64,000 bases of DNA from NCBI GenBank assembly GCA_964030785.1, contig OZ034975.1:39393569-39457568 (forward strand), written 5' to 3'. Shown here piece after piece: positions 9,304 to 58,285 of the stretch; the first letter of the stretch is position 1; each line of letters starts with the position of its first letter. This DNA comes from Siderastrea siderea (lineage: Eukaryota > Cnidaria > Anthozoa > Scleractinia > Rhizangiidae). A program made the translations under genes and the position numbers. Under the pieces are notes generated by a model. The model was not told the origin of the DNA. It saw nothing but the letters and a program-made list of their open reading frames with translations, and did not search any database.

Positions 9304-9985
9304 TCAGCTTGTTACAGCAAGAACAGTTTCCCTTTTGAAAACTGTTTCTCCAGAAGCACATAGTGATTTGATTCTTTGAACAGGAATGAAACAAGCAGGC
9401 CCAAACACATCAAAGGTGTTACACAAGATTTCCACAGGAGCTCCAAATGTGTAGTGTTCAGGGTGTTTTGAATACTTGTTCACTCGGGCAATATAAAATT
9501 CATATCTCTGGTCTTGTGAATTGGACAACATTGATTTAACTTTAATGCGATGACGGAAGAATGTCATAACTTGTCCTGGTCTCACATCATCACATCCTGT
9601 GGTGGCAGCTAGAGACCCTTCTGTTCCTGCCCAGTTAGCTAGAACAAATGAATTCCTTGTGGTCTGACTTTGCTGTGATCCATAAAGCAGTGAGCCAATT
9701 TTAATGGCTTTGAATTCTGAGACAGTGAAGGGCATTTCAATGGTAGTCCTTGTATCAAGTCCCAAAAGCTCCCGGCACACTACTTTAAGTGCATTCAAGT
9801 CATCACTGTCTAGAGTTTCATCTTTAATGGCTGATGCTGGACAAATGCAACTATTTGATGTCCAGTCACAAGAACTTAAATATTGAACAGTTGCTTCCCT
9901 GTGTTCTTGAAGACTAAGATACTGTTCTATTGGTTGCTGAGTAACTTTGACTGATCCTGAACTCTGGCAATTATCAAAAAACTCT

Positions 9986-31890: not shown

Positions 31891-31940
31891 AACGCCCTCC
31901 AAACTAAAATGTGGCATTACGATTTAGGCAAATTCAGTGT
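31891..31940 (+). repeat. Left terminal inverted repeat
   Basis: The first 50 bases match the reverse complement of 58236-58285 at 46 positions; the mismatches are at offsets 26, 36, 41 and 48. Three of the four are A/G transitions. Confidence 0.93.
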
Positions 31941-32164
31941 AAAATTACCATGTCACATTGAAAAGTTTTGATATTCCGAAAGAAACTGGCTAAATAAAAG
32001 GAGGAAAATGGGGCTTCCGTGAAGTTCACGCGGAGGAAGAGAACAAATTTTCCAATTCTGTCAAAAGCCTTTATTCTACTCACTGTTGCTCTTTATTTCT
32101 TAGAGACTACAAAATTACTGAACCCCCAATACTTACTGAGAAAAAACGAAAAGTTACCTCTGAT

Positions 32165-33235
32165 TCTAAAGGGATTCAGAATTTCTGAACCCCCTAACAC
32201 TTAACTGTGCAAAAAGGGCTGTTTTACGAGGGTTCAGAAATTCTGATCCCCCTAACACTTAATTGAATAAAAATGACTGGTTACCTCTGAAAGTAAAAGG
32301 GTTCAGAAATTCTGAATCCCTTAACACTTAATTGAATAAAAATGGCTGGCTACCTCTGAAAGTAAAAGGGTTCAGAAATTCTGATCCCCCTAACACTTAA
32401 TTGAATAAAAATGGCTGGCTACCTCTGAAAGTAAAAGGGTTCAGAAATTCTGAATCCCCTAACACTTAATTGAATAAAAATGGCTGGCTACCTCTGAAAG
32501 TAAAAGGGTTCAGAAATTCTGATCCCCCTAACACTTAATTGAATAAAATGACTGGTTACCTCTGAAAGTAAAAGGCTTCAGAAATTCTGAATCCCCTAAC
32601 ACTTAATTGAATAAAAATGGCTGGCTACTTCTGAAAGTGAAAGGGTTCAGAAATTCTGATCCCCCTAACACTTAATTGAATAAAAATGACTGGTTACCTC
32701 TGAAAGTAAAAGGGTTCACAAAATCTGAACCCCCTAACACTTAATTGAATAAAAATGGCTGGCTACCTCTGAAAGTAAAAGGGTTCAGAAATTCTGACCC
32801 CCCTGCTACTCAATCAAACAAAAAGGACTAGTTACCTCTGATTCTTCATGGGTTCAGAAATTCTGAACCCCTAAGACTTAAATGACCAAAAAGGGCTGGT
32901 TACCTCTGACTTTTGAAGGATTCATAATTTCTGATCCCAGCTAACACTTACATGGACAAGAGGGACTGGTTACCTCTGACTGTATAAGTGTCCAGAATTT
33001 CTGAATCCCCAAACACATATCTAATGACAAACGGCTAGTTACCTCTAACTACAAAGAGATTTAGAAGTTCTGATTTCCCACCCCTTATTGACTAAACAAG
33101 CTGGTTATTTTGAGTTATCATTAAGGCCTCACAATTTTCAATTCCCTGTCACGTATAATAACTGATTGAAAAAGGCTGGTGACCAGACCTATTGAGAATT
33201 TCTGATCCCACATCCCTTATTGAAGTTCTGATCAC
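32165..33235 (+). repeat. Left subterminal satellite, 69-bp units
   Basis: The core TTCAGAAATTCTGA recurs at 32233, 32302, 32371, 32440, 32509, 32577, 32646, 32715, 32784 and 32853, almost always 69 bp apart, with decayed units to about 33235. Each unit also contains CCCCCTAACACTTAATTGAA and GGCTGGCTACCTCTGA. The core with flanks, GGTTCAGAA-N-TTCTGAACC, is palindromic. The position just inside the terminus suggests an array of transposase-binding sites. Confidence 0.92.
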
Positions 33236-33747
33236 CAACATACAATGGTTCCAAAAAATGGCTAGTAACGTCTAATCAAAGAGAAGTCAGAAATGCTGTA
33301 GTTCCAGAAAAAATCCTCCACATTTCTAACAGAATGGATCAGAAAACTCCAAGAGAATTGAGAAATATATATATAAAACAAGGTTGCAATTTTCAAAGGG
33401 ATAAGGACGGTTTAAAAAAAACAAAACAAAAACAAACACAAAAAACAAATGAGCAAACCAAAAAAACTAACAACAATGAACTTTCCTGGGGATGGGGGTA
33501 TGGATATCACCTGGAACTACACAATTCTGAAAGGATTCTGAATTTCTAGTTCATCCGAACACAATGAAAAAACCAAAAAACAAAACGAAACAAAAACAAA
33601 AAACAGTTTGACAACTACAGTCCAAAAAGGGAGTCAAAAGGTATGATTCCCATCCCTGAACTACACAAAAAGACATGCTTAGGAAAGCCTTTGCACTTGC
33701 TTAGCCTGTATCGATGGTAAGCCTTCAGAAAGCAATGCAATATTATT
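33236..33747. other. 3' flank of the ParB/methyltransferase-like gene
   Basis: Between the left satellite and the stop codon. It has an A-rich stretch (33410-33480, 33565-33605) with AAAACAAA runs and a GGGGTATGGATATCACCTGG block resembling one at 50520. No coding sequence. No canonical AATAAA was found for the minus strand. Confidence 0.4.
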
Positions 33748-36700
33748 TTAATTGTCATTGCATTGCATTTTCTCCCTGATGTTTTCAAGGAGATGCCACT
33801 TGTCCTCCTCTTTTGTTTGCGGATCCACATAAATAGCCTGCCTTTTCATTTGCAGACCTGCAATCATGGCATTACCTGAAAATCAGATAACACTTTAATT
33901 AACTTTAAGTAAAATTTAACCCATAGTCAACAGTGCATTAATATACTATAAATATATCAAAATTCTAGTCAAATTCAGAGATTAAAATTGTTGTATTCCA
34001 AGGCGTTTCTTGGAAAAATAGAGACAACTGACTGTAATGGTACTGAATTTTTTTTTAAATAGGTAAGCATGGAAGCGAAATTGTTCATTTATTAACAACA
34101 TGTATGATAACAAGGCTGTTGCTTGTTGTTCTTATTGAATGTTGGTAAACATCACCGATCTTTTTGGTAAAATGCTTTCTTACTATTTCCCACAATGTTA
34201 GCATAGATCTTGGTTGATTGCATGCCAAAAAAAAAAAACATTCATTCAAACTTAGAAATAATCATGAATATAATAGAAATTAGAGTCAGTTCTTATCAGG
34301 GGATCTTCAATGGCAAGTAGCTGAAACAGTTTACAATGGAAAACAAGTTTACCGTTTCCACTGCCAAGGTCAAGGATGAGATCCCCCTCCTTTGAAAATG
34401 AGGTGATCAGCCACTCATAAAGCTCTAGTGGCTGGTGGGAACTGCTTCTCAACACCTCAATGGCATTTGTTGTGGCTCTTGAAACATGCCTCTCTGTAAG
34501 TTTGTGGGACACTGCCCAGTGGCCCACAACAAAACAATCGACCACTTCAGTCATAAGCAAGTCTGGAAAAAAAAAACCCAACATCAAATTTTCTACAATG
34601 AAATAACTTAAATTACAAATTTAAAATATGTATTTCATTTATTAAGTTGTTAACTAAAGCTTTCTTGTTTTATTTTATACACTTGGGTTTACTGTTTGTT
34701 ATTACCCCGCCGTCAGGACGGGGTCTAGTAGTACCCGTTTTTTTTATTTTCCATTTTTTTGGTGGTCACTTGCCCCAGACCTCCGGTTTTTGCTCGGCCA
34801 AACATACTCGTCGCGTCTTTTGCTACACAGGCCGTCGTCGCGTCTTTTGCTACACAGGCTAGAGCGTGTATCTTGAGTGACCATAATATCTTTTACACCC
34901 CGAGGGGAGGGGGGAACGGCGGGGTAATGCCCCTGGGGCTTTTCTTGTTGAAAGAAAAAAATGTCAGGTTTTTTTGTGTCTGTCCTTTCTTCTCTTTATG
35001 ATAATAAACTTCATCTTAAAATTCCGAAACTGACATTAACATGTTAAATTCATTGCCATTAGTTACAGCACAACTAGGACATAACGTGATTCATACTGGG
35101 GAAACTAGCCATTTGCATTTCTGGCAAAGCCTGATCATTTTTTGGAAAAAATATCTTATGGAAGGGAAAGGGGAATTATTTACCCTTTGTTCTTGTTCCC
35201 ACATTCTTGTTCACTATAAATCCGCGCTGAGTTTTGGCAGCGCCATTGGAGGAGACTGCCTCCTCAACTGGGTGAGATACTGCTGCATTGCAAACTAGTA
35301 TCACGTTGAAGATGGTCATGAGCCTTTTAAAATTGACCCTGACCACCAAATCCACTATGTCTTTCACTTCTGTAACCACATCCTGATGAAAGATTGAAAT
35401 ATAATTGACATTAAACGCTGCTAACACATCACATGTTTTAAGATGGTAACGATTTTCTAAATACCAGCAAAATTAAAGGTATCAGGTGCTAGCATTGTGG
35501 AGGCATAGTTAGCAGAATTCTTGTGGAAAATTAAAATGTATGTGACATGTATAAATATCTTGCAAACTTGGTAGTATTTTTTAAAGGATTTGACATCCAA
35601 CACTTTTCCTCCCTGGTGAAGTACAGTACAAATATTCTGTGTCTTGTATATAATGCACAATAACATTTTTTTCGTTAGGCAATGCACACGCCCACTGATA
35701 AAATAGCTGATTAGAATCTGTCCCATAGTTGATTAAGGGGCTAGATCATGCGGTGTGACTACACTTTTGGTGCAACAAAAGCTGTCAAAACTCTTTCGCT
35801 CTTCATTGTACCTGATGGAAAAAAGAGCACTTGTGCAGCTAGCGTATTAACATACAAAATCTGAATGGGGTTTAATTGTATGATGCAATAGATAATTACA
35901 ACGAAATGTATTTTAATGAAATTTACTTGCTGGGTTGTTTGGAATGAAGACACCTAGTAATTTTAGTGATGATAACCTAGTTTAAAGCAAAGAAACTGCC
36001 ACTTTTGGCCAACACATCAAAAACATAAACAGCACGATTCACCAAATGGCCCACAGGATTGTATGGATTGTGACTGTTTCGCCAACACAGCAGACAGCAT
36101 GAAAAACAGTGGCCAGCTTTTTTTTAAGATTGTTGGTTTTTACTGAATGTGTCTAAGACATGACCTGGCCCCTGTAATTATTTATCCACTGACCTCAGAA
36201 TTGTAGCCAACATGCCCAATTGTCAGGAATGCCCCATTTTCAAGGCAAGAAGATGAGATGTCCACATCTTCATACCTTACAAACAGAACATGGCCTTTGC
36301 TAATACCATCCGGACCTGCTATCACCCTCTCATTTGTCTCCTCTTCATTGGTGTTGTTGGCTTTGTTTTTCAGGTGCTGCAAAAACATCTTAAATTCATG
36401 TAGCTTCTCGAAATCACCCTATAAATGAAATAAGTATTAAAATAATATTCGCTTACGTGTAGTTGACCAACAGAACATTGTTAAAATAAAAAAAAATTAC
36501 CCACTACAATTTAAACAATGATTATGTCACTCCTGCATTTGAAGCTTGCATTACTAGCATTTAGAATCAATTCTAAAATTAAGAAAACTTGGACATTGAA
36601 ATACCTGTTAAAAGATTAAGTTAAGGGCTAGCTGACAGAAGCTGTCTGTGGAAGTTAAATTACGTTTACCTTAAAGCGTAGAAGCCTTTCCGAACGAACA

Positions 36701-39700
36701 CTGTCTCCAAATTTTGTTACAGCCTCCTGCCAGTTCTCCAGTTGGAAAAATTTGGCCACTGCCTCTTGCACTTGTGAAAGAACTCTCACATTGTCAGCTT
36801 GATGTTTAAGTTCTTTCAGGCTTATTTCCCTTTCCTTCAACTACAAGATAAGGCATCAGGTTAAAAAAAAAATGGAAATTAAGGCTGAAACAATAATGAT
36901 TTTGGTTATGCAGCAAATTTTCATGAATCAAAAGGGCATTAATTTTGTCTTTGAAGTGGACAAGGATAGCCCTTGTCATAGACAGTTGAAATTGTTTTTA
37001 ACGTGGACCTTCCATTATGTAGCAGGGAATTTATGGGAAAAATACTCAGTCTACGCTGTAAGTTAGTTAACATGACAGCAGTTTTCTTATCGATGATTTT
37101 TCATGAACCTAAGTCAAGACATGGACAAGTTATGTGCAAGCCAACAATTTTGAAAAAAACTTGGGCTAATGTTTTGTCAAGTCCTTTGCCATGGTTGTAA
37201 ATTGAGCACAATCCATTCCATCCTGCTTAAGACGCAAAATTTATTATACAGCTATGCTTCCATTTAACATAATGTAAAGGGTAAATTAAAACTACATGTA
37301 TCCTTTGTCTGATTAGACTTACAACACATACTCCCCAATTTAGGCTACTGCCTGCTGTCTGGATTGCACTTTTTCTTTTGATCTGACAAAATCAGTGATT
37401 GTGTTTTCTTTTTCTGAAACTTAATGATTCACAGATTCACACTTTTTGTAGGCCCAAAGAAACAAGAGCAGTCTGGCTTGACATCTTATTTAGTGCTTTA
37501 TGTTCAACAGAACTTGCTTTGCAGACCAGTCCATTTGTACATGTAAATAGAATGCTCCATTTTGAAAGTCTCATTCTACAATTTCTTCCATGAGCTGAAA
37601 ATGGTATGTACCATTTTGAAAATATTCAAAGCAACATGGCATAATAATTCATCATTTGGATCAGTGCATTCTGTTTACTACTGACAAGTAGTAAACAGTC
37701 ACTGGGATGTGACAACACCACAATGCTGATATAGATTCCTGCGCCCAGTAAACAAACAGGATTGAGCCAACCCAGGCTAAGTGTGAATTTTACATTCAGT
37801 TTGACAGCCAAGCCATGAGGATTCCTGAAAATGTTTTGACATTGGTTGCTTTCAAACAGTCAGTTGAAATTGGCCTTGAAAACTCTTTTTAACAAGGGAA
37901 GGGAACTTTTAATCGCAGGTTAGCATTTACCCAACTTTTGAACAACAGGGCCCTAGTCATTAAATGCTATGCTTGTACATATAATTATGTATCTCAATGA
38001 AAATCTATTAAATAGCGATTCCTGGCTCAAGTCCCCAGAAAATTAGAACTTCAAGTTTTGGCCCTGACTGAGCCCCAATTTCTGGTTCCTCCTGTATACT
38101 GACAGTAAAAGACGAAGAGTGCAGCTTTAAGTTAACTTTAATAACACACCTCACCTTTATCAACAATGAGAGTTTCTGCTCATCCTTCAGGCTACATAAC
38201 GGCTTCATGTGAGACTGCTTCAGGCTCACAACGCCCCGCACAACTTCTCCCCCACTAATTTTTTGTTCCTTTAATTTTCCCATCTCAAACAATGAGTTAA
38301 CCTCTTGGAATTCTTTCCATACATCTTTTCCAACTCTGGCCATGACAAAAACGTCACTTAGTGCTTTTTTCTGCAACATTACGTCAATAAGAAAACAAAT
38401 TCACTGCTTATATGTGATTCATATTTTTTAGAAAGCAAACAATTTAACACTAACTTTAATGCAAATAAAACTCACTACCGGTATGTTGGTATTTCAAATT
38501 ACTTCAGTAGTCATCATTTACTGCACCTTTCAATAACATGCAGACTCCAAAATTCACAGCTCAACCCACAAATGCATTTTTCCATACCATCAATCAAACG
38601 TTCGGTGGCTCCTCCCAGCTTCTGACTACTGCTGAGCACTGTTCGTATCATGAGCTTTTTTGCAGTTATCTGCCAGGTCAAGCCTGATTGATTGTTGAAG
38701 TTCATTGTTGGAATATTAATTACTTTATTTGTTTCAATAATCCACATTTCAAATCAACAATGAAAGTTTCATTAATATTCAAACTGAAACTCAATCCCAT
38801 ACTCATTTTTAATTCGATTACTTCAGGCTAGAGGCTCGTTGGAATTTGCCTGGTTTCCCGATTTGCGTAATCCACTCCCAACGGATTCTCACGATGTTTA
38901 ATTTTTAGTTCGGGTTTCCTAATTAATGTAATCACCTCCTTTCAGTCCCATCAAAATGCTCAAAGTTTTTTCCCTGTTCTGTTTTGTTTCAAAAAGCTGG
39001 TAGTGAGAGAAAAGAAGAGAAAATTTTCTAAGTCAGATGACCTTTGTACATGTAGTACAATTAGGGGAAACCTGTAAAATTTCCACATGCCTGAGGCCAA
39101 CGGGTGGAGTTTCATTTTCATTATTTCATTCTTTGTTTGAAAGATGGATTATTGAATCCAACAAACAAATCAATATTGCAGTAATCAACTTCAAATTTTT
39201 ATTTTGTACTTGCTTGAACTGGCTGATGACTGTAAAAAGTCTCATGATACGAACAGCTCTTGGCAATAGTCAGATGCTGGGAGGAGCAGCCAAACATTTG
39301 ATTGACAGTAGTGAAAAATGCATGTGTCCGTTGTGCTTTGAATTTTAGAGTCCGCATGTTATTTAAAGGGCGCAGCAACAGCACTGTAGACACCAGCAGA
39401 TAAGCCGCACCCCAAGTTTAGAAGCTCAATTTTTTTGGGAGGGAGGGGAGGGGGGGAGTCATGAGTCATGTGAAAGTTCCCTGTAAAAGAGCTCAAGCTC
39501 TGGTTAATGCAAGCAAGACTCCACATGGTAAATACTGATTAATAAGGTTGTAGGAAGTTGTAGAAAAAAACAAAGGGCCATTAACCAAACAAAATACTTG
39601 AAGTGAGAGGCTGTTGGAAAAACTGCAAATAACCTTACAGTGTCATGTGTGTAATGTGAATTCCTTGTGTGGCTCACCACTAAGCCATCAAACTTTCAAA

Positions 39701-42700
39701 AGTTCTAATATTCTTATTGTTTCATGCCATATGTATTCTTCTTTAAGCAAACTGTAATTCACATTGAGCATTGTTTTATGGACTCTTACAAAACCTTCTC
39801 CAACAAATTACAATGGTACAATGGTAAGCAATAATAGTAAATACACTGTATGCCCACCAAAACATCTGAAAAAGATGATCCCACTAATTTTTTAGTAATG
39901 ATCGCCAACAATAAAAAAATTGCTTTTTTTTAGTAATGTTCCACCAATGTTTGCCACTTTCATCTCATTTTGAATATACCGTAGATGTACAGTTACCTAG
40001 TGATTGTACGTAAGGAGCAATTTTATAAAGAAAATCCAGCTTTATTAACAATGGTGTCTGTCTTTTTCAAATTAATGCAAACAACCAAAACTAGAGGTTA
40101 CCTCTTTACATAATATTCGAGAACAGTCATCCCTCCACAACGGTCTTGGTTCTGGCGGATCACCTGCAACATCCTCTTCTCCAAACAACTGCATACGGCA
40201 GCGCTCAACCTTATGTATCAAATGAAAACATAATTTGATTTAATTTATCTTTGGTCACCATAATTATAGTAATACTGCAACTTATACATGTACATAAAAG
40301 TCAACAAGAAAAAATTGTGCGATGTTTATCCTATACAGAGAAAGAAACAAAGAAACATGTAATCTATATTACCAAATTGAAAACATACTTCACTTACAGT
40401 GAAATTTCTTTTAGTACATTACGCTTTCTTCTAAGTATATTACATTCTTTACTGCCACAAAAGTTTGAGGAAGGCATCTCAGTACTTCTAAGACAAAAGT
40501 TGACTGGTCCTTGTATGACAGAAAAATTAATGTTTTGTACACAATATTGTGTCACTAAACTAACTGGATGTGTATCTAATTTGCCAGAAAAAAAATGAAA
40601 TGAAAAAAAAAAACCAATTCTCATAAAAGTTTGTCTGACCTCCTCTCTGTAGGTGATGTCATGTTGAAACATTGAGGATTGTTGATGCATCCCCCCTAGA
40701 TACACGGCTTGCTCGTCGGAAAGCCCAACATAAATGCGGCACATACGACCAGCAAAGTGTGGGTTGTCGGGCTGCTTCTTGTTCATTCTTTGGGTGGCCA
40801 AAGACAAGTGAGTTCCCCCAAGCACTTCATATGTGAATGAATCCTTTTGGTCATACTTCCATTGTTGCTTGTTGGAAATGCCTTTGGCCACCACGAAGAG
40901 TGCCCCATAGCTGCCAGCTGGATTCCGTTCCAATTCAGCCTCCAGGCTGTTTATGAAAAGCTCATTTACTCGTCTAAATTGTCTTCCTTTGGGTGGAAGT
41001 ACCAATTTGTTGGTTGGAATAAAATAAGATGTAGCTGCCGCAAAGAAAAATAAATAAAATAAATATTTTTGGGAAAGTTATAAATAAAAAGTGGACATTT
41101 TAGGCCCGGTTCAAACGTCGAACTTTACATGTGCCAAACCTAATTGCTATTTTGGTCGACCTAAATAATTAAGTTCGACAGTTGATTCAGACGTCGACCT
41201 TAATCACTCGAACTTAATTCTCCAAAACAGCGGTAAACAATCATCAGTTGTGCAATATCAGGTCTCATAAAGCATAGGAATACAATTAACAGGAAAAAAA
41301 GCTTTCTTTTATTATAGTTGTAATATTTAGATATTACGGTTTAAGAATTCGTTCGCCAATTTTGGGATAAAAACAGTTTTTATCGATTTTGTTATATTCT
41401 GTTATTTCAGAATAGCTATCCACAAAAAAAATAACAAGGGAAAACAATTAGACTTTCATGCAGTCTGTTATAAGTAACGATTCTTGTCGATAGCACGTTT
41501 ACAGTTTGCGCGGCCCAGTTCTCTTTTTAATCAGATGCAAGAACGTTGAATGCATGACTGATCACGGTTTAATAAGTGACTAGTCATGCTTATCGGTTTT
41601 AAGCCAATCACTAGCACTGTTATATTCAGAAATACATTAACGTAATTCATGCATTAGGTTTGGCACATGTGAAGTTCAACGTCTGAATCAAAGTTGAACT
41701 TTTGCCGTTCTATTCGACTTGCACAGTCGAATAGAACGGCAGGGTTGACCCAAATACAAATTTGTCAAACTTAATTGATTCATACGTCGAACTTCACATG
41801 TGCCGAACCTAATATTATTAGGTTCTGCACATGTACACTTCGACGTTTGAACCGGGCCTTAGGGTTAAAATTACAAGGATAGGTAGTGGTCTCTAAATAC
41901 CCCCCAGTTTTTCATATCTTGACCCACCATTTTTAAAATCTACCTAAATACTTTTGACAAATTCTCGCAATTTTCACTTTGACCCTTGCCCTTCTTTGCC
42001 AAGTAACTTTTCACCATGACTACGATATGAATGAAGAGTCCTTTATGTCAAATGAGACACTATGTTTGAGTATTTGTGAGGGTATTACTGTTTTTCTTTG
42101 CCATATCTATTTATATGCTCATTTTGCTCTTCACAGTTAAGTTTGTCTAATTACAGGTTGGAATGTCTGTTCTCTGTTAGTATATTTAGGCCAATTTTTT
42201 GCTTTCTTTCCTTGTTAGACAATTAACTCACCAAGAAGTCTACTGCCTAGCAACGGTGTTTGTTTTGCTTGATGTTCCATTATCCAATGGATCCCGCTTA
42301 AAAGTATACCACAAAGGGCAAACGGCACACTTTAAACCGCGGTTTGCAGTCCGCAGGAAACTTCAATCTTTAATAGGGTCTCTATTTTATTATCAGTTCT
42401 CACGGACCGTTTATTTGTTCTCGCTTGTCCTAGTAAGGTGGCATTGAATTCCCGCTAATACCTCCACTATTCTGTTTAGAACAAGAAAATAATCGAAATA
42501 AACGGTACCAAGAGGAACACAAATCTGTCACCATTTCATTGAAGGTCGATCACTGACTGCACATGCACGAAAGCTTATAAGCTGAAAGAATCTTATTAAA
42601 AACTATTGAACTAATTTCCATTCACTTACCACTAACAAGACATTCTTCACATGAACGTTGTATTTCGTCGTCTTGCTTGCTTTTCTTGATCGGCAAATCG

Positions 42701-44362
42701 ACATCGGGGGTAAAAGCAAGCCGTTTTTTGCGCTTTGCTGGTTGGTTCCTTGAAACGGGCGTTTCAGTTGCTTCATTTAAGTCTTTAGTTGCTGCATCTT
42801 GAGTATCAACATCAACAACACCATTTTGCGGAGTAGAGGCACTTCTTCCGTTTGGAGTAGATGTGTCCTCTACATGTAGCTCTGCGACGGAAGGCTCGAC
42901 GGATCGATGGACAGGTTGGTTGGAAGGTTGCTCATCTTGTTCGTCCGGTTGCTTCTTATTCAGTTCTTTCAGTTGACCAACGGCGTGTGAAAGCTCTTGG
43001 GCCAGTTGATTTGCGGCTTTACTAGCGCATGCGTCAAAAGGCCGACAGGAGTGGAAACGGTCAAAGTACATCGCTGGGAGCAACGCAATCTTCACCCGTT
43101 TGTTAGTTGACTCACCTCTCTCGAACTTCAGCTGTGAAATGAAAAAAATAAAAATTAATCCTGGCTCTTGTCGTGAAAAAATGTAATCCTGAGGAGTTTA
43201 GCTTTTTCAATGTTGAGCGGTGGCAGGAAGCCTGCTCTCAGAGTGGGAAAATTTAAGCTTTAATCTTCAACCCTTTCAGCATTTTATAGCCCTTTTAAAC
43301 TCACAGAACCAGGAGGACACCCTATCATACATACTGACCACCAAGCTATAGTGTGACCTGCACTGGAACCACGTAGAAAATAACTGACATGCTTATTTTT
43401 ACCGTTTTAACCACAGGTAAGCAAAGAGTAATATGAGAGTTGGTAGGGAGTTGAAATTCGATCGAAAATAATCGGCGGTTTTGCGCCGAAAATACACAAA
43501 ATCAAAATAAAGTTTGAAAAACCTTACCTGCTGTGAGTTTGCTGTGTTTTTATCGCTTTCCCAAGCTTCTGGAGGCCGTTTTGGACGATTTTCTGCTTAA
43601 CGGTCGATGTGACGGCATGTCACCTACTAAAGAGAGCTATTGTATGTGACATGCCGTCGCATCGACGGTATTTGGAAAAGCGATAAAAACACAACAAACA
43701 AACAAACAACAGGTAAGGTTTTTCAAATTTTATGTTGATTTCAATGTATTCTCGGCATAAAACCGCCGATTATTTTCGATCGAATTTCAGCTCCATACAA
43801 ACTCTAATACAAACTCTCTCTCCTGTGTTTCACCCAGGCTACGAGAAAAATTTAAGCTTAATAAGAGCTGAGGTCAGTGATCGGTCACAAAAGGTTGTTT
43901 TTCGTTTCCTAACTTGACTATATCTGAATCTTTAGTTAATATGGCTGAATGAGGTCTCTATTTATCTCTGTAACTTCCGAAAATAACGAGGTAAGGTTAC
44001 TTGTGACGCCGCTTACACATGAAAGCAAACCCTGTGTTTAATATCCAAGTGCTACGCGACCGGGAATGGGGGAATGATATGGCGTCTTGGAACAAAACTT
44101 GTCTGACCGGCAGGACCGGCAAAGAGGAAAAGAAAAACAGAATCAAAAATCAACCCACAAGAAGACAGTTGAAAGCCAAAAGCTCAGTTCTTACCTGGAT
44201 CATCTCTTTTCCTGACTGGTATGACACTTCGGTATCTATGTCTAGCAAAATCCCATACTCTTGCTCATTTCTACTCTTTAAAGGCAGACTGTTTCTGAGA
44301 ACTTTTGCTTTGCCATCTACAACTGAAATTGTCCACAACTTTTCTTTGGTAGGCCTCGTCAT
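33748..44362 (-). CDS. ParB-like / N4-N6 DNA methyltransferase-like fusion protein, 773 aa, 10 exons
   Basis: Exons: 44362-44195, 43131-42630, 41034-40640, 40209-40102, 38370-38155, 36840-36670, 36418-36194, 35382-35184, 34562-34353, 33875-33748. All have GT-AG borders, matching phases and no stop; the total is 2322 bases including TAA. Residues ~140-220 have basic nuclear-signal-like runs (PAKRKKRLAF, PIKKSK). Residues ~224-370 resemble a ParB/sulfiredoxin-type domain: YEVLGGTHLSLATQRM parallels the ParB GxHR-type box, followed by YVGLSDEQAVYLGGMHQQ. Residues ~595-773 match the C-terminal half of N4/N6 methylases: HQPLELYEWLITSFSKEGDL, then the SAM motif LILDLGSGNG, then GLQMKRQAIYVDPQ. No DPPY/NPPY catalytic box is seen where exon 7 ends, so catalysis is doubtful. 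ParB-methylase fusions are known in phages and bacteria; the many introns show long eukaryotic residence. Confidence 0.8.
34701..34928. mobile_element. MITE in intron 8, ATTACCCCGCCGT ends
   Basis: ATTACCCCGCCGT at 34701 and ACGGCGGGGTAAT ending at 34928 are perfect 13-bp inverted tips. The interior contains GTCGCGTCTTTTGCTACACA in two tandem copies. No coding capacity. Confidence 0.7.
38520..39375. mobile_element. Foldback MITE in intron 4
   Basis: Arms 38520-38760 and 39140-39375 are inverted copies (AATAACATGCAGACTC against GAGTCCGCATGTTATT, and TGTTTCAATAATCCA against GGATTATTGAATCCAACA). The centre is unrelated AT-rich DNA. Frames within it are by-products. Confidence 0.8.
41103..41858. 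mobile_element. Harbinger-type MITE in intron 2
   Basis: The tips GGCCCGGTTCAAACGTCGAA and TTCGACGTTTGAACCGGGCC are inverted, and TTA flanks both sides, as for PIF/Harbinger elements. Internal copies of ACATGTGCC(A/G)AACCTAAT occur in both orientations near the ends and centre. Confidence 0.85.
43434..43820. mobile_element. Foldback MITE in intron 1
   Basis: The left half (GAAATTCGATCGAAAATAAT with CGGCGG, then TTTGAAAAACCTTACCTG and ACGGCATGTCAC) is mirrored by the right half around about 43625. Nearly the whole 387 bp is self-complementary. Confidence 0.85.
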
Positions 44363-47704: not shown

Positions 47705-47736
47705 GTAACTGTATTCTAATATATTTGGATCCACAG

Positions 47737-48488: not shown

Positions 48489-48870
48489 TTCAGACCATCC
48501 ACAGATAATGTGTTCATACCAGCAACCAGGACACCTGGACACATACACACACAAACTGGCTGTTTTGCAGTGAACTTTTCTTGACTAGTAATATTCCTGA
48601 ATTATTATTAACAGTGGTAAATTAAGGTAGACAGTTGAGTATGTAAGAGATACAAGTTACCATACCAGATAGCGAGAGGTTAGGGATACATGTAGCAGGT
48701 GTCTACATGTACTGTTCAGTTTGTTTATCACATGAAAATTATCAGCTGCTGTACATGACAACTAAGATAACTAAAATTGTACATTGTAAATATCATGATT
48801 TTTAAAAAGTATACATATTTGCAGGTTTTGCAGGAATATTGTAATCTAATCTCTGTCAAGTTATCTTTTC

Positions 48871-48876
48871 AATAAA
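48871..48876 (+). terminator. Poly(A) signal after the DBF4-like exon
   Basis: AATAAA, 383 bp after the stop codon, is followed by a T/G-rich stretch (TTCTGTTGTTGTTTTTTG). The next splice acceptor (48943-48944) is only about 70 bp further, so cleavage here would compete with splicing to the DUF7869 exons. Confidence 0.6.
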
Positions 48877-48944
48877 AGTAGCATCGCAGACTTCTGTTGT
48901 TGTTTTTTGTAGCAAGAACTCAATTCAAAATGCATTTTTTGTAG

Positions 48945-51900
48945 TGCGAGATGATGACTGCATACTGAGGTTGCTGGCGGTGTCTTGTTGTGATAAAAGA
49001 TGTATGAGGAAGTTGTCAGTAGAGGACATACATTCCACTGAATTGCACTTCTGCAGTAAGGATCAAACAGAAAAACGCAACTATGTGCTTGATTATCTGT
49101 CAGGCCATAGTCAAGTTCTAGACTCTGGCGAATATGCAACTCAATTTAAAGTCAAAATGAGAACAGTATGTAGAGAAGCCTGGCTGTTGATACACAGTCT
49201 AAACAAGGAATGGTTCAGGCGGGTATTTAACAAATTCAAGGAAGGTGCTGTTGAAGTGGAACATGGCAACAAAGGCCAGAAGAAACCATCACAAAAGAGC
49301 AAAGATTGTATAGCATGGTTGCAATTTTTTGTGTCGTGCGTTGGCCAGTACCAACCAGATAACAAGACAATCCATTTACCTTCATGTTTCACAAGATTGA
49401 GTGTTTACCAACGAATGTGTGAAGAAAATGAATCTTTCAGTGGTCCATCCATTGGAATTTCCCAGTTCTATGCTATCTGGCGGGATCACTTTTCACATGT
49501 CCTAATACCAAAGGTAAGGCTTGAAGGCTGAGTGGATTTCAAATAATATGGATCATTCAACTATCAAACACAACTTTTAAGTCCGACTGGATTAGTTACA
49601 TTTGTTTATCTTGTGGTTCAATTTTTCTTTTGGTTTGAAAGTTTCAACCCGTTAAATATCGTTTTCTCCTGTCTTCTGAATCCAACATACACACAGAAAT
49701 GAAAATTAAAAGTTACATGTATGTAAATTTTTCATAATCAATCAAAACATAACACACCACACAGGACAGCAAGTTGCCTCTGCCTACCTGATCAAAATCC
49801 AAGTAAGGAAAGTCACTGGACTAAAATATTGTTAGAGACTATACTCTGATTGCCCAAAAGTGGATTTGAAATCATTACAACTAACTGAAGTTCAAAACTG
49901 CAGCAACAAAGTTGCTTCTAATTCTAATGTTGCAACAGCTTTGAAACCAGACACAGGGAAACCTCAGTCTAGGTTTCTATCTACAGTTGATTTCATTGAA
50001 CCTCTCTCTTTTTTAAATCGCTTTAATTTCCTCTTTGCTTACAACAAAACAAGAAAGGAAACTAATGATGCAAAGATTACAGGGATACAACAAACTGTTT
50101 CCAAGGGAAAAAAACCAATATTTGGAGTTAAATTATGACCAGCCGTTCGTTTATTTGTCTTGTAGCCAGATAGCAACATGGCTTTATCCTTTTTAATTAT
50201 ATAACAGGAAAACCGGTTCACTAAATGTACTGATTGTACAAGATACAAAGAGGAGAAGGAGAAAACTCATGACAAGAAGGCCAGGCAAGAGATAGACAAA
50301 CTATTAACAGAACATATGGACTTGGTCTGGTGAGCCTTATTGTAAATAAAGTCATAATGTGTGGTTACAGAAAATATCCCTACTCCCCCTACAGAGGGTG
50401 TTTTGGGTTTGAACCCCCGCCCCTATGGAAATTCCAGCTTAGGCTCCCACTTTCCTTTAAAAATTTTGGCCTATAAGACCCCCCCCTCTTCCTTGAAATT
50501 TCCAATGACCCTCTGTGGTGGGGATATGGATATTTCCTGGAACAACACAATCAAAGCAATTGTAAAATCTTGGTTATAAAGTTAACAGGACCTGTAAAAA
50601 CTGGAATTTGGTTTGCACTCAAAATCTCAGAATACATTTTTCGCTAACTTAAAGTATTGACAGGAAAATGGTTGTTACACCACTGAAAAAAGCTTCAATA
50701 GAGCTTGGTGGTGTCATGTGAATACAAAAAATAGTCAGAAATCCTAAACCAATAGTGGGCTTTCTTCCTACTACAGTTTATTCAAACGTCATTTATAAGA
50801 ATAACTTTTTCTGTGTGAAATATATCTGCTAGTCATGAAAGCCTGCACACATTCTGATCAACCAAAATACACTTTTAGAAAATGATGTCTGCCCAGTGTT
50901 TGTACAATATTTTAGGCCCATGAATGGTTGTACACTGTAAGTCAAGAACTTTCATTCTCAAGGACTTATTGTCACTGACCAAATGTGTAGTAAACAATTA
51001 TGTATGAATCACACAGTCCCTCATTTCTATCTGTGTCAGTGATAGTCCTTTTTTACATGTATGTATGGTAACTTCTGGTGTCAGTGGTGCTGTGCATTTC
51101 ATTTTGGGTCACCTGATAGTGTTTTATAACAATCATAAAAAGGTTGAGTTGCTTTTAGTAGATCTTCCTGTGTAATTGACAAATGTGATGCTGGGATGAA
51201 ATATTTTCCTTGACTTGATTTGTCAGCTTATACACAAAATCCAAAACTATTATTATTTATTTGCACAGGAGAGAGAGGAGGGTCTATTACCTCCATCGCT
51301 ATAAGGCTCGTCGATATCCGTCAAAATATTTGACCATCATTGATGATGCGATGGACCAGAAGACGACCTGCATACCACGTGTGCGGCGTAAAACCAAGGC
51401 CACCTGTAACCTGGCAACAGTTGGCACCCACTTAGTTGGGGCCATTTTTCACAGTGGCCAATCACCACATGGAAAGGAGGTGTTTGGATCATTTGACTAT
51501 TATCAGTGGCCACATGACCCAAACTTGACAGCGTCTGTTTTGCTGGCTATGTTAGTGAGATGGTGTGAAAAATATCTACTTCCACCAGTGTTGTACCTGC
51601 AGTTAGACAACTGTGTCAAGGAGAACAAGAACCAGTATATACTGTGGCTTCTTGCTCTTCTTGTGGAACTGGAGATTTTTGAGAAGGTAAAAGTGTGTGC
51701 TTTTCTTTCTGTCTCAGGATACATAACACCAATTTATGAATAATTATTCATTAAATCAGCTGGCATTGCCTGACAAACATATCTTGGTGCCCAAAGAAAC
51801 CTGTACAACTATATGGGCACCAATAAAATATCAGATCAACTTCTTTCATGCTAATTATTAGTAATTTGACAAATTCACGATAAACTTTTCATGAAATACA

Positions 51901-54900
51901 GTTTGATTAGCTTCCACTCAAGAAGAAGCTCCTAAATCACTAGTATAGAATTCTGAATTTCATCAATTTGTGGACTTTTGTTGAATGGCCAAGAGACCTT
52001 CTGTATAATCTACTGGCAAAATTATTAAAGGAGAGAGTTAAAAGTTTACCTTGTTCAGATTTCCGTATCCTTGCAATAATTGTTTAACATTATCTTTCCG
52101 GGTTTCGGTGTTAAAGTAGCCACACTAATTCTGAGAAAGTATTTGACAAACATTTGTCTGAAGATTCATAAAAGGGGAAATTCACTAAAAATAGCATTAA
52201 GATAGTACTTTACAGTATATACAGTGTACAATGCATTTGCATTCATTTAGACACAGAATGTCTGCAAAGATATTGATCAGTGATCCTGTCATATCACAAG
52301 CAAGTTTAAGTACACATTGCCCGTGGGATTGTATTTAACTATTAATAGGCATACATGTATAGCCAAGCTTTTATTGCTAGCACAAAATCTTTGTCAACCA
52401 ATTGTTAAACTTTGTCACATGATTTGGGATGTTAAGGACGGTGCCTCCTAATACAGATGTATTTTTACAAAGGATATGAGTACGGGGGAAAAGTAGATCT
52501 TAGCAAGGGTTATTGGAATCCAAAAAGAAAAATATGGGTAACCACCCATTTTTTCAGAGATAATTAAGCAACCAAAATTCGAAAAAAGCATTAAAATACA
52601 CAGAATGTATGGCAATTTCTTTTCAAATTTAAGCTCAATTATCTCTGAAAAATGCACGGTTACCCACAATTTTCTTTTTAGATTCTGATAGCCCTTACTA
52701 AGATCTGCCTTCTCCTAATATTGTATTAGGGGGCAAATCCCTTACGTAAAGCCGAATATACCGAGAAGCGCAAAACGTATGCGCAATAACAAAAGGGGGC
52801 ACTGTCCTTAAGGTCATGGGAAATGAAGCCACATTCTTGATTTAGGTCGAATTTCGTCAAGGTCACTATTAAAATAACAATGAGGATTCTGTGACAGATC
52901 AGGAAGTTTGCAATTCCACAACATCATATCCTGAAAATGCACTTTATTTACCTTGACAGTAATCAATGGTAACCTTTATGATAAATTTGTGATTATTTCT
53001 TGACTTCTTTACTTTCAGATCCGATTGAACTTTCTCCCTGTCGGTCACACTCACGAAGACATCGATGCCTTCTTTGGTGTATTTTCAAAGTATTTAGTAC
53101 AATTAGATGTCTACACCGTAGAAGGTATGCAGTGTTACAAATCAGGAATATTTGTATGTGATGTGTGTGAACTAAATTGCCAATCCAAAAACCATGGAAC
53201 CTTGAGAGAATTACCAGTACTGCAAAATTAACATTGCCAAGTTTTTAACCCTTTAAGCCTTAAGCCCCGATGAGAATGAAATTTCTCTTTACATGAATAC
53301 TACTTGTTTGAATATTCAAGTGACAAGAATAAAGGAAGTGATCACTGAGGATAGTGACTAGTTTCATACGAAATGTATAGAGATCAGTAATGAGAATATG
53401 CATTTTTATATCAGGGCATAAGGGGTTAATTATTGTTTAATTCTGGGTTCAACGCCTTCACTCTGACCCTATAGGCCCTGCCTTACATGAAGTTTTGGAT
53501 ATGCTACCAAACAAGACCCTCTTAATGCCAAGGCAATTGCTGGTCTGCCAAGCTAGGCACCTTTTTTCTACACTGCATACAAAAGTATCATTGGTTATAA
53601 AAAGTGACAAGGAGAGACCTTTAATATATGACTTGTGCAGATGATTAATATGTTCTTGGAAGTTCCAATAACATTTGTAAAGTAGCATTAACAAGGCTTT
53701 ATTGTGCCTTAAACACTGCACTTTATTGAAGTTTAAATCTCGTTATAGATTTATTGAGAGCTATGGCAAGCTGTCTGGCAAACATCGAGGCATCCCCCTT
53801 TTTACTTGATGTGGTGTTCAATATTAAAGAATGGCTTTCACCACATGCTGAAGAGCTCCATTCACACACCCAGCCAAAATGTTTCAAATTTGTCAGGGAC
53901 GAGCAAGGGCACTGTGTGATGTATTACAGGAACTATTCCCATATGAAATGGGAGGGACCTCAACAACTCCTCAAGGTATGGAAAAATGTAAATTAAGCCA
54001 TTGACTGACATATGTATTGTTAAATTTATCATCTGATGTCAGTTCTTCTGCTGATAAGTCATCTGCAAATTGAGTGACTAACAAAATTAACGTTAGTGTA
54101 CAAACATTCAGTTCTTCAGAACTAATTTACAAATAAGTTCTTCCATCAGTGAACTAACTTGTTTTTGTTGCAAGGCTTAATTATAATCTTGTATATGGAG
54201 ACCAACCGTATTGGTGTCAATATGAATTGCCACTCGCTCTTTACTTAGCAGGAAAGCTTTAGCCTTCCTGATTAGCTATGTGTACATTGTCCTAGTTACT
54301 TCCTTATGAACAAAGGCCACGAATAGTTCTTGGGCTTTCAGCCTGGAAAAACTTCAGCTTAAGACAGCAGTACCTTATGCGCAGCCACATACAAAACAAA
54401 GAGTGCAGGCGCGCTACTAATAATAAGTCTTATTATCGTGCATAAAAAATGGCAATACTGTTATTATACAACAGAAGCTCTAATGCCCGTTACGTCAACC
54501 TGTATCCCATTTTGCTCAGTTTTGCTTAGTGTTCAGTTTTTTAGTCATTTACCGCAGTGACTGGTTATCTTGAGATATGACACACCTTTACTATCTCAAA
54601 CCCCAGCTATCTCGAACAAGTTTTATTTTCCTATGAGAGTTCTATGTAGCAGGGTTAAGTTATAGTGTGGACACATTGTCTGTCTGCCACCTTTCAGATA
54701 ACTGAAATCTAACATTCACAGATCAATGCTTTTAATCACTGCACATGCAAATTATGCAACACAAGTAATTTGTACTAATCAATGTACACATTAATGCAGC
54801 TTAATATCTAGATCTGATACTCATAAACCATGTTTAAAAAAGAGGGCTTATAACATCTCCATCTTTTGTTCTTCTGAAGACTGTCCCAGCAGGAAAGCCA

Positions 54901-56153
54901 AGTCTTGTGCAACCCACCATCAACAAGATTGATGTGGAAGCTCTGAAGAGAGACCTCAAAAAGTTTGAGGACAATTATCCTATTGGGGTTTCAAGAGCAT
55001 GGGCCCAGTGGCTTCAGGATGTGGACAAACTCTTGGAGTTACCACTTAGCTGGGAATGGCCTCTAGAAATTCTTCAGAAGTGCCAGAAAGTCAAGCCAAC
55101 AGTTGAAGATGAGGCCATTCCTGATAATTTACTAGCCATGCGTGAGAAAGAGACAGAAGGGACTCAACAGGTACATTTTTTCTAGTGATATTGTTTAGTC
55201 TGTGGAGTAACAAACTTTTGAATAGTGAATTGTAGATTGCAATGGTGCAACAAAATTATCAATCATATATTTCACAAAATAATGTGGAAAGATTGATTGT
55301 TTAATGGAAATATGATTCTGAAACTCATGAATTCTTCATATGTTACAAACATGGATTTTGATAATGAAAATAATAATACCAATAATAAAAAATTAATTAA
55401 AATAACAGATATTATAGATAACAAGTTAAAACATGAAAAGCTATAACAAAAACTACTACTGTTTTGTCTCACCTGCTTTACTTGGCATCAAGGTCATGAA
55501 TAGAAACAAAGCAAGTTGAACATGTATTTGCAATTATTGTTTCTTTCAAATTTCAGCCTGTTTATGAGAAGGTTATTTGTTTCATTTATTTCTTATGGAT
55601 AAGTATAACTAAAATATTAAAATAATGCATTGTTAAGCACATTGTACCAGCATTCTGTATAAGACATTAAGCACACTGATATGCCTTTTTATATGTTGGA
55701 TGCTGTATTTCACTGCCTTCCTTGGCAAAGTACATGCTATTCCTGTTACACATAAAATAAAGCAGTCTGCATTTTTGGTTGCCTCAGATCTACACTGGAC
55801 GATACAGGCCACCACAAGAGCGTGAAAACCCAGTTGAAACTGTAGATGACTGCTTGGAAAGCGTTGAGGTGGGAACATTTGTTGCTGTGAACCTGTCCAA
55901 TTGTGATAAAGTGCCAGTTATTGGAAAGGTGCTCGAGGTGGATGTGGAGAAAGTCAAGATACATTATTGGAAAGGGTCATTTAAGGGAAAGTGGTGTTCA
56001 CAAAATGTTCCAAGGAGTCAGACTCCATGGGTCGATGAGCTGCCCAAGAGTTGTATTATCTTGTGCTCATTCACTCTAACTGAAGAAAGCAAGCTGTTGC
56101 CTTCTACAAGGAAACATCTTAAAGATGAGTATGCCAAATTAAAACAAAAATAG
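48945..56153 (+). CDS. DUF7869-type protein, probable DDE-like transposase, 7 exons
   Basis: Exons G-M: 48945-49513, 50208-50329, 51269-51686, 53019-53124, 53749-53975, 54880-55170, 55788-56153 (stop TAG). All borders are GT-AG and all phases match; 2099 coding bases plus one from the upstream phase-1 exon give 700 codons including stop. With exons A-E the protein is 827 residues. Visible: a Cys-rich start (SCCDKRCMRKLS), a basic Cys segment (FTKCTDCTRYKEEKEK), then the DUF7869 core with three acidic clusters, YLTIIDDAMDQKT, LYLQLDNCVKENKNQY and LNFLPVGHTHEDIDAFFGVF. Their order and spacing fit an RNase-H-like DDE/D nuclease. The C-terminus (YRPPQERENPVETVDD to the end) resembles a small chromatin-reader-like barrel (VGTFVAVNLSNCDKVPVIGK). 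There is no in-frame ATG near the first exon start, supporting splicing from upstream. AATAAA lies at 56179. Confidence 0.82.
52436..52807. mobile_element. Foldback MITE with TTAA duplication, intron I-J
   Basis: GGACGGTGCC at the left tip and GGCACTGTCC at the right tip are flanked by TTAA (52432-52435 and 52808-52811). Internal arms AGAGATAATTAAGC / GCTCAATTATCTCTG and GGGTAACCACCC / GGTTACCCAC are inverted. TTAA fits piggyBac- or Kolobok-derived MITEs. Confidence 0.8.
53245..53429. mobile_element. MITE, TTAACCCTTTAAGCC family, copy 2 (intron J-K)
   Basis: Begins TTAACCCTTTAAGCC and ends GGCATAAGGGGTTAA. Internal words AATAAAGGAAGTGATCAC and AGAATATGCAT match the copy at 4738-4943. Confidence 0.75.
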
Positions 56154-57040
56154 TGGTTTTTTAATGTAAATATGAACTAATAAATCTTCCAAATTTTAAC
56201 TTCAAAATTTAAACTCTTGATAGCCAGGTTTTAAATATTAGGGTCCTTCCAGTTCCAAGCACGTGGGACTAAGAACATGTTTAATACTCTAAGGCAAGGC
56301 CATCAAATACCATACAAGTCATATACCGTTAGAAAAGAGTGTCAACATGGTAATTTTATTTCATTTCTAATTCAATGGTTTTGCTTTTCCCATTATTTTT
56401 CTCTTTGTTTGGTTTTGTTTTGGTTTTACGGAATTTCCTTAACATCTGTAGCAATCAAATTTATAATCTCGTGGAAGTCTATATCCACATGTATAAGATA
56501 ATCTACATTATTTTGGGAAATTGTTTATATTGAGCCGTTACATGTATATCAAGTCAAATCGTGAATATGAAAAACAAATGTAAGGACTCTTTTTATACTT
56601 CAAAGGACTACATAAATTATAGCTGTATATAACTGGCTTTTCTTTCTGTTTGAAGTGGACGTGTGTTAACAGTTTATTGAGAAAATTTAGAAGAATTGTG
56701 CAGTACAGGCATTTTATTGTTAGGAAACCGCCATTGAACAGATTTCTGTTTTATTCTTCTTTCAATGTTCTGTGAAACTACACTGGAATAATATTTATTA
56801 TAATTGTCATGACTTGCATTGTGAAGGTTTCAATGCAGTTAGTGTCAAAATCTGATCATAAACTTGTCACTTTTAGTCACTGATAAGTTCTTAATTCATA
56901 AAATTAATAGTTAATTCTACCAGTCTAACTGGGTTGATAAATTTGGTTGATTTAAATGTAACACTAAAGACGAAGATAAAGTTAATCATCTGAGATATTG
57001 ATTCAGTCTTGCTTACTGAAGCCTAAAAATATTCAAAAAC
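56154..57040. other. 3' flank of the DUF7869 gene
   Basis: Contains the AATAAA at 56179-56184 and then AT-rich DNA with no coding frame, up to the right satellite. Confidence 0.5.
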
Positions 57041-57044
57041 TTCC

Positions 57045-57890
57045 CGAGGCGATCACAAATTCTGAGGTTCATTGTTCTGAAACTTTTCTGGAATCTTTAT
57101 GGGTATCAGAAATTCTAAAAACTCTCTAGAATCTTTAGGGGTATCAGAAATTCTGAAACCTCTTTGGAATCTTTAGCGGTATCAGAAATTCTGAAACCAC
57201 TCTGGAATCTCTAGGGGTATCAGAAATTCTGAAACCTTTTTGGAATCTTTAGGGGTATCAGAAATTCTGACACCTCTTTGGAATCTTTAGGGGTATCAGA
57301 AATTCTGAAACCTCTCTAGAATCTCTAGGGGTATCAGAAATTCTGAAACCTCTTTGGAATCTTTAGGGGTATCAGAAATTCTGAAACCACGCTGGAATCT
57401 CAAGGGGTATCAGAAATTCGGAAACCTCTCTGGAATCTTTAGGGGTATCAGAAATTCTGAAACCTCTTTGGAATCTTTAGGGGTATCAGAAATTCTGACA
57501 CCTCTTTGGAATCTTTAGGGGTATCAGAAATTCTGAAACCACTCTGGAATCTCTAGGGGTATCAGAAATTCTGAAACCTCTTTGGAATTTTTAGGGGTAT
57601 CAGAAATTCTGAAACCTCTCCGGAATCTTTAAGGGTATCAGATTTTCTGAAACCTCTCCGGAACCTTTAGGGGTATCAGAAATTCTGAAACCTCTCCGGA
57701 ATCTTTAGGGGTATCAGAAATTCTGAAACCTCTCTGGAATCTTTAGGGGTATCAGAAATTCTGAAACCTCCCTGGAATTCTTAGGGGTATCGGAAATTCT
57801 GAAACCTCTCTGGAATTCTTAGGGGTATCAGAAATTCTGCAACCTCTCTAGATCTGTAATCTTTATGGGTATCAAATTCTGAAACCTCGT
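57045..57890 (-). repeat. Right subterminal satellite, 38-bp units
   Basis: About 22 units at 38-bp spacing (for example GTATCAGAAATTCTGAAAC at 57141, 57179 and 57217) carry the core TCAGAAATTCTGA, then CTCTTTGGAATCTTTAGGGG. In reverse complement a unit reads GGTTTCAGAATTTCTGATAC-CCCTAA, parallel to the left satellite's GGGTTCAGAAATTCTGAAC-CCCCTAA. The two ends therefore carry related arrays in inverse orientation. Confidence 0.92.
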
Positions 57891-58235
57891 TGATTCTGGA
57901 TATCTGTTGGGTTCTTATGTGTGGATCCGACATTAGTATGTGGTCGATACAAAACACAAATTTTCGGGAAAGAATTTCGTGTTTCCTCTCAAATCACGAA
58001 ATCTCACATCGTATTTTTAGGATGATTTGTAGACTCGGAGCAAACAACAAAAATAGCCCTTTGTATAAAGAGGTGATTTTTCATTTCTGCAAAAAAGTCT
58101 TGTATCATTTTTTGCGAAATTTCCACTTTTTTCCAAAGTAATTCAAGAAGTAGCAATGAGCGAAAATCGTTTTCAGACAAAGGTTGCTAATCTACCCGTA
58201 AAAATGAATCATTTTCGTGTTGTGTCTTAGTATAT

Positions 58236-58285
58236 ACTCTGAATCTGCCCAAATCGTAACGCCACATTTTAGTTTGGAGGGCGTT
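58236..58285 (-). repeat. Right terminal inverted repeat
   Basis: The reverse complement begins AACGCCCTCCAAACTAAAAT and matches the left end at 46 of 50 bases. It is followed outward by GTAA (58286-58289) and the resumed 0.79-kb repeat unit. Confidence 0.93.

Follow-up and report, generated by a model that had tools for sequence, protein, structure and literature searches.

We analysed a 64,000-nucleotide stretch of the genome of the coral Siderastrea siderea (contig OZ034975.1, positions 39,393,569 to 39,457,568; hereafter the window, in whose coordinates positions without a contig name are given) and observed that it contains a transposon of 26,395 bp carrying three genes: a DUF7869 transposase gene (T), a DBF4-like gene (D) and, on the opposite strand, a gene with a methyltransferase-like C terminus (M). 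The element lies between the left tip AACGCCCTCC and the right tip GGAGGGCGTT, and 46 of the 50 terminal bases are identical between its two ends, which form terminal inverted repeats (TIRs). A 4-bp target-site duplication (TSD), GTAA, stands on both flanks (Table 1). The flanks are made of a tandem repeat of about 0.79 kb, and the target site, TCAGGTAAATATTCC, is unbroken in the adjacent repeat units at 31341 and 59075, which provide built-in empty sites. An earlier reading of the window from its letters alone (the sequence-only reading) had proposed a complete element of about 26.4 kb with these ends, inserted into the tandem repeat next to intact empty sites; its coordinates were borne out to the base, as was the account of the insertion site.

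To find other copies, we used the leftmost 60 bases of the element as a query against the source genome, which comprises 831 Mb in 402 contigs. The 25 matches obtained correspond to eight two-ended copies and nine single tips, the partner of each single tip being absent from the 10 kb fetched around it. A second giant copy of 25,870 bp, with its own TSD (TTTT), is present at C8 42776641-42802510. This copy aligns with the window element from the first base to the last; the alignment covers 25,887 bp and contains 127 mismatches (0.49%). No match to the window was found in the 300 bases flanking it on each side. Relative to the window copy, the C8 copy lacks three blocks, of 237, 222 and about 65 bp. 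The six remaining two-ended copies span 1.7–10 kb; the short ones are deletion derivatives without full coding capacity. Five of the eight two-ended copies have an exact 4-bp TSD (GTAA, TTTT, CGGT, GCAG or TCAG), two diverged copies have a TSD that is off by one base (TTGT/TTGA and CTAT/TTAT), and one (C266:104086-109832) carries a left end on both sides, in inverted orientation, and lacks a TSD, perhaps as a result of aberrant transposition or rearrangement. With TIRs, TSDs, empty sites and repeated copies that end at the same tips, the window element is almost certainly a cut-and-paste DNA transposon, and it has moved with these tips and a 4-bp duplication. The sequence-only reading had called the element recently mobile and probably autonomous. 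Further copies with the same tips and 4-bp duplications, including the second giant, and the empty sites support this description, and similarity running on past the tips, which that reading had named as a sign against it, was not seen at the C8 copy. Because the C8 copy matches end to end within different flanks, an assembly join is not the explanation. An artefact, or a chance arrangement of unrelated repeats, might be suspected from the position of the ends within a tandem repeat, where assemblies fail, but the independent 25.9-kb copy with different flanks and TSD, together with the exact TSDs of related tip pairs described below, leaves this explanation a negligible probability.

Table 1. 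Features of the transposon and its insertion site, in window coordinates
Feature	Position	Strand	Remarks
Whole transposon, 26,395 bp	31891..58285	+	TIR, TSD, second copy
Left terminal inverted repeat	31891..31940	+	46/50 match to right end
Right terminal inverted repeat	58236..58285	-	46/50 match to left end
Left target duplication GTAA	31887..31890
Right target duplication GTAA	58286..58289
Empty site, neighbouring tandem-repeat unit	31341..31355
Empty site, neighbouring tandem-repeat unit	59075..59089
Gene T, DUF7869 transposase	48945..56153	+	PF25273 7.2e-30; exon model
Gene T exons	48945-49513, 50208-50329, 51269-51686, 53019-53124, 53749-53975, 54880-55170, 55788-56153
T last exon, C-terminal domain resembling NIPBL C-terminal tail	55788..56153	+	Family profile 1.1e-13
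Gene D, DBF4-like, 344 aa	45213..48488	+	zf-DBF 1.1e-11 (Pfam); human DBF4 4f99_B 6.3e-12
Gene D exons	45213-45417, 46861-46917, 47684-47704, 47737-48488
Gene M, 10 exons, 773 aa, N4/N6 DNA-methyltransferase-like C terminus	33748..44362	-	PF01555 3.5e-4, below cut-off
Gene M exons 1-5	44362-44195, 43131-42630, 41034-40640, 40209-40102, 38370-38155
Gene M exons 6-10	36840-36670, 36418-36194, 35382-35184, 34562-34353, 33875-33748
Left subterminal palindrome array, 11 CAGAAWTTCTG sites	32177..33003		Mostly 69 bp apart
Right subterminal palindrome array, 16 CAGAAWTTCTG sites	57145..57839		Mostly 38 bp apart
237-bp block, missing in C8 and C266 copies	34704..34940		Probably later insertion in window copy
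222-bp block, missing in C8 copy	43175..43396

The sequence-only reading had treated the element as a lone giant. This view needs correction, as the element belongs to a broader group with related termini and several loci with the same three-gene plan. A diverged element of 21,929 bp (C3:23812357-23834285, TSD CCAC; its outer parts were fetched) has its genes in the same order as the window element. Its ends, AACGCTTTCCAAACTATTTTCAGTTTTTC, face inward and are identical to each other over the first 29 bases, and its first 16 bases agree with the window tip at 14 positions; its exons share 55% (T), 34% (D) and 36% (M) identity with those in the window. A general tip motif, AACGCNNTCCAAACTA, matched the genome at 152 places, compared with 5 for the reversed control. 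Among 100 listed of these 152 places, there were 33 neighbour pairs within 40 kb: 19 inward, 14 in the same direction and none outward. Fifteen inward pairs were newly fetched, and 13 of them had an exact 4-bp TSD, one had a 5-bp duplication (TTACA) and one had none; mismatched pairs, used as a control, gave a 4-bp TSD in 1 of 210. The other four inward pairs were also exact (C8, TTTT; C3:30.04, GCAG; C3:23.81, CCAC; C5:26.04, TCAG), so that 17 of the 19 carry an exact 4-bp TSD. At a further locus, C5 9745045-9777521, candidate termini have 3 and 4 mismatches in the 14 specified motif bases, and the flanks (CAGA/ACCA) keep no TSD. A 25.6-kb GT-family copy on C4 was considered as a third giant and rejected: it proved to be an element of 8.2 kb that lacks a T match and is lengthened by a nested insert. 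The insert in this element (C4:59656402-59682046, TSD AGAA) is about 17 kb long and Polinton-like, with polymerase-like, integrase-like and capsid-like frames named by eye. Separately, C5:34121471-34173130 contains 13 tip motifs (12 AACGCTTTCC and 1 AACGCCTTCC), all pointing the same way and spaced about 4.3 kb apart, a tandem array produced by amplification of a single transposon end.

The exon models of all three genes were drawn with GT-AG borders. T matched PF25273 with 104.4 bits, well above the gathering score of 26, and three T exons scanned in Pfam matched no family except DUF7869. The protein is 698 aa long when started at 48945 and 767 aa long with exon 45213-45417 as its first. This exon is phase-compatible with both D and T. 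It is probably the first exon of T, judging from its phase, and would then be common to D, which leaves the 5' end of T uncertain; D and T may share a promoter and an N terminus through alternative splicing. The sequence-only reading had described three uninterrupted frames after splicing, and this stands for the exon models in both giants, in which the frames of M, D and T are open and the splice sites are kept in the C8 copy (one T exon was re-registered there for a 2-bp intron difference), with a reservation for the 5' end of T. We found 390 relatives of T in the protein database at E<=1e-3, and PF25273 was present in all of the best 120 of these; the named relatives among the 120 come from cnidarians, echinoderms, hemichordates, molluscs, sponges, lancelets and a protist. 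The closest named relatives among the matches listed are from Montipora (stony corals, Acroporidae), with 78–79% identity. In an alignment of 41 relatives taken from the best 120, the D of IIDGMDQ and the E and D of VGHTHEDID are invariant and the D of LQLDNC is nearly so, as would be expected of a DDE enzyme. The last 95 or so residues of T match the C-terminal tail of human NIPBL (6wg3_E), at 1.1e-13 with the family profile and 1.7e-4 with the window open reading frame (ORF) alone; the T family has no match to NIPBL beyond this tail, and the rest of T is without a counterpart in it. The matched tail is presumably specific to one NIPBL isoform. This similarity makes an exchange of a domain between a transposase and the cohesin loader NIPBL possible, in either direction. 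Among open-licence PMC papers, we found none on DUF7869 and, by title, none on topic for NIPBL with transposase domestication.

D aligned with human DBF4 (4f99_B, the regulatory subunit of CDC7) at 6.3e-12 as a single sequence and at 2.7e-15 with a profile of 19 relatives. The alignment covers residues 5–133 of 4f99_B and comprises a stretch starting PFIKMEDQSRKYKPEFFEFKRFPFIDTTVPLPLSPFD and the CCHH finger; we take these to be the CDC7-binding motif M and the zinc-finger motif C of DBF4, both of which D carries. In DBF4, the stretch kept in D binds and activates CDC7. In contrast to the human protein, D is transposon-borne and short. Its homologues number 20 proteins at E<=1e-3, including the window's own, and 19 of the 20 (18 of the 19 relatives) contain zf-DBF; an Acropora cervicornis protein is among them. 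A BRCT domain, presumably equivalent to the N-terminal motif N of DBF4, was found at E<=0.01 in 11 of the 19 relatives. We hold with high confidence that D is truly homologous to DBF4 and belongs to the regular gene set of these elements. A search of open-licence PMC papers found no transposon described as regularly carrying a DBF4 gene. Five other DBF4-like frames of 290 codons, 31–33% identical to D, occur in the genome (C4:3132654, C3:10192960, C5:4808491, C13:16779940 and C2:67377809). Four of the five have no DUF7869 match within 45 kb, and these frames perhaps represent another element family.

To determine how often the three genes occur together, we searched the genome with single exons and obtained 42 matches for T, 23 for D and 21 for M, which merged within 6 kb into 34, 21 and 17 loci. 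Eight of the 34 T loci have D within 45 kb, in every case upstream and on the same strand, where about 0.08 would be expected by chance. M was found within the same distance at 6 of the 34 (about 0.06 expected); at five of these it lies upstream on the opposite strand, and at the sixth, on C11, downstream on the same strand. Five of the 34 have both D and M within 45 kb. The gene plan M(-)-D(+)-T(+) thus recurs in diverged loci. M itself has four relatives at E<=1e-3 (from the 7,999 scored candidates sharing the most words), and the named ones are from corals. Three of these relatives matched a PHROG methyltransferase, at values from 3.6e-5 (P0141) to 4.8e-3.

Close to both ends of the element, we observed arrays of the palindrome CAGAAWTTCTG. 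All 27 sites in the window element are within 1.4 kb of an end (11 left, 16 right); the middle of the element and the remaining 37.6 kb of the window contain none. The C8 copy also has 27 sites; counts of 26, 28 and 14 were obtained for three derivatives that have exact TSDs, and 22 for the C266 copy. Of the 26 sites in the first of these derivatives, 11 are located outside the terminal 1.4 kb, beyond intervening sequence with no match to the element. Other families retain the GAA[A/T]TTC core with arms that differ yet stay symmetric: CC..GG in the 21.9-kb C3 element (11 sites in the fetched parts), TGCA..TGCA in the 8.2-kb GT element (10 GCAGAAATTCTGC and 12 GCAGAATTTCTGC) and CGCA..TGC[A/G] at the C5 locus with candidate termini. 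Because the arms change together while symmetry persists, this pattern suggests that the palindromes may be recognized by a dimeric DNA-binding protein whose specificity depends on the family. The DBF4-like gene, the near-end palindrome arrays and the NIPBL-like tail of T are what makes the element unusual.

We compared these features with known transposon systems. Sola elements have a 4-bp TSD, the length found at the window element and at the related tip pairs, and Kolobok elements have the TSD TTAA. TTAA is also the TSD of piggyBac (in the available part of PMC2872659), whereas the TSDs observed here are GTAA, TTTT, CGGT, GCAG, TCAG and others. As described in the available part of PMC12730594, Zisupton has an 8-bp TSD, and EnSpm/CACTA and Plavaka have CAC or related ends with a 2–3-bp TSD; the present element ends in AACGC, and its TSD is 4 bp, exactly so in 17 of the 19 inward pairs and in the window. 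TSD length and sequence therefore speak against Zisupton, EnSpm/Plavaka, piggyBac and Kolobok. Coral miniature inverted-repeat elements (CMITE; PMC2872659, in part) are piggyBac/TTAA elements, unlike the present one. Zisupton, Kyakuja and Dileera (KDZ) elements are similar in that they are giant DNA transposons, often with extra genes, and according to the accessible portion of PMC12477816 they reach 30.3 kb in Ectocarpus; of the three, the description in PMC12730594 gives a TSD for Zisupton alone. The same source describes Sola1-1_Ec32, also from Ectocarpus, which is 21.5 kb long and encodes, on the strand opposite the transposase, a protein with ParB-like and N4/N6-methyltransferase parts; its authors propose that proteins of this kind may bind the transposon that encodes them and modify it epigenetically (PMC12477816). 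As far as that description goes, Sola1-1_Ec32 is the closest known system, being similar in size and having an opposite-strand accessory gene, the methyltransferase part of which is weakly supported in M; it differs in its ParB domain, which is unconfirmed in M, and the likeness is one of description rather than of sequence. The sequence-only reading had left the element unassigned to a named family. By its TSD and its opposite-strand partner gene, it is a Sola-like DUF7869 giant transposon and may belong to Sola1.

One possible explanation is that the element is an ordinary giant Sola1 with known kinds of genes, in which D was picked up by chance as a passenger and plays no part in transposition. 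The 4-bp TSD, the existence of Sola1-1_Ec32 and the weak methyltransferase match of M all agree with this. By contrast, D occupies a constant position and strand at the eight T loci that have it and, in the C3 element, where it shares 34% identity, can still be recognized as an open frame, unlike a neutral passenger, and the words 'DBF4', 'palindrom' and 'subterminal' are absent from the text of the Ectocarpus paper (PMC12477816). We consider this explanation, taken as a whole, unlikely. A virus-derived element of the Polinton or Teratorn type would account for the large size and the captured cellular replication gene, but no capsid, polymerase or packaging gene was matched among the eight element ORFs scanned in Pfam at E<=0.1, and pattern scans of viral contigs, the sensitivity of which is limited, gave 23 (M) and 33 (T) candidate stretches of which none was confirmed as a relative. 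Teratorn, a piggyBac fused to a fish herpesvirus (41–182 kb, encoding a piggyBac transposase alongside viral genes, as described in the available part of PMC6431247), is likewise a giant animal element moved by a cut-and-paste transposase; it differs in that no viral gene or piggyBac transposase was matched in the scanned ORFs of the present element. A viral origin is very improbable.

The best explanation as a whole, and one we consider likely, is that the element is a complete and probably autonomous DDE-type cut-and-paste transposon in which T, M and D each have a role. In the mechanism that we propose, T would be a DDE enzyme that binds the TIRs and moves the element by excision and by insertion at a 4-bp stagger. 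The GAAATTC-core palindrome arrays close to the two ends would be bound, and marked or paired, by M or T, and D would recruit or mimic the host replication kinase CDC7. Transposition would thereby take place in S phase or beside firing origins, where cut-and-paste could become copy gain. Copy gain of cut-and-paste elements is tied to replication timing, Ac and Tn10 being textbook cases. The separate parts of this mechanism carry different weight. That D acts through CDC7 has a little less than an even chance. D could instead help without CDC7, either as a DNA-binding or repair adaptor with a BRCT-like domain and a zinc finger or as a dominant-negative block of CDC7; BRCT domains are often found in repair adaptors, but the stretch that matches D is the DBF4 part of 4f99_B, a structure solved together with CDC7, and we regard this alternative as improbable. 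That M is the binder of the palindrome arrays is a tentative proposal, on which we would put somewhat less weight than on the link of D to CDC7. A joint proposal goes furthest, namely that an ancient group of giant animal transposons uses its own DBF4 to drive or time origin firing at the element and so ties its jumps to S phase, that family-specific parS-like arrays dock M and that the NIPBL tail and the last exon of T have a common origin; taken together, this appears doubtful.

Several observations weigh against the proposed mechanism. First, just two giant copies of the window family were found in the genome; because of this, its autonomy is a status that we infer, although the window element is probably a complete autonomous transposon. 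Differences between the two giants also give no evidence of constraint on the codons (silent/replacing: M, 1/4; D, 1/0; T, 2/10), being too few and too recent for a test. Second, the association of the genes is partial: 26 of the 34 T loci, many of them short or distant matches, have no D within 45 kb, and T is absent within that distance from 13 of the 21 D loci and 11 of the 17 M loci. These solitary D and M loci either speak against a strict partnership or reflect decay and limited sensitivity. Third, the BRCT match of D itself (8.3e-4, 20.0 bits) is just under the Pfam cut-off of 21.3. Fourth, the match of M to PF01555 reached 21.0 bits, below the Pfam cut-off of 26.7; three of its relatives also scored below the cut-off (0.026, 0.018 and 1.5e-4), and the relative P0144 had no match. 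M matched solved methyltransferases weakly (0.6), and no DPPY-type motif is evident by eye in the M relatives, so that neither M nor its four relatives combine a score above the gathering threshold with such a motif, as N4/N6 methyltransferases do. Because of the weak match, the absence of a match in P0144 and the lack of an evident DPPY-type motif, M may be enzymatically inactive. Fifth, a ParB domain in M was apparent by eye only, from a GGTH motif, and was rejected when profile searches gave no support. At E<=10, PF02195 (ParB) matched neither M nor any of its four relatives, and a search of the genome with it was also negative. The M profile placed GGTH on the GNHT of seven bacterial and phage ParB proteins with 0.9% probability, and with four ParB-methyltransferases it aligned only the methyltransferase end, with 1.2% probability; both comparisons are weak tests because the profile was built from four sequences. 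The ParB-like middle of M is best treated as a lead. Finally, the data tie no gene to the palindromes, and the two most diverged two-ended copies have one and none of them.

If the proposed mechanism is true, a transposon lineage with its own activator of an S-phase kinase would have a direct means of controlling replication timing. The system can be tested in cultured cells thanks to the pair of near-identical giants, the short derivatives and the empty sites built into the locus, and the subterminal palindromes are defined candidate binding sites. The NIPBL-like tail suggests that a domain may have passed between transposases and the cohesin loader. Outside the element, the window also contains a transposase-like frame on the minus strand at 9304-11305, which matched Transposase_21/tnp2 at 9.7e-11.

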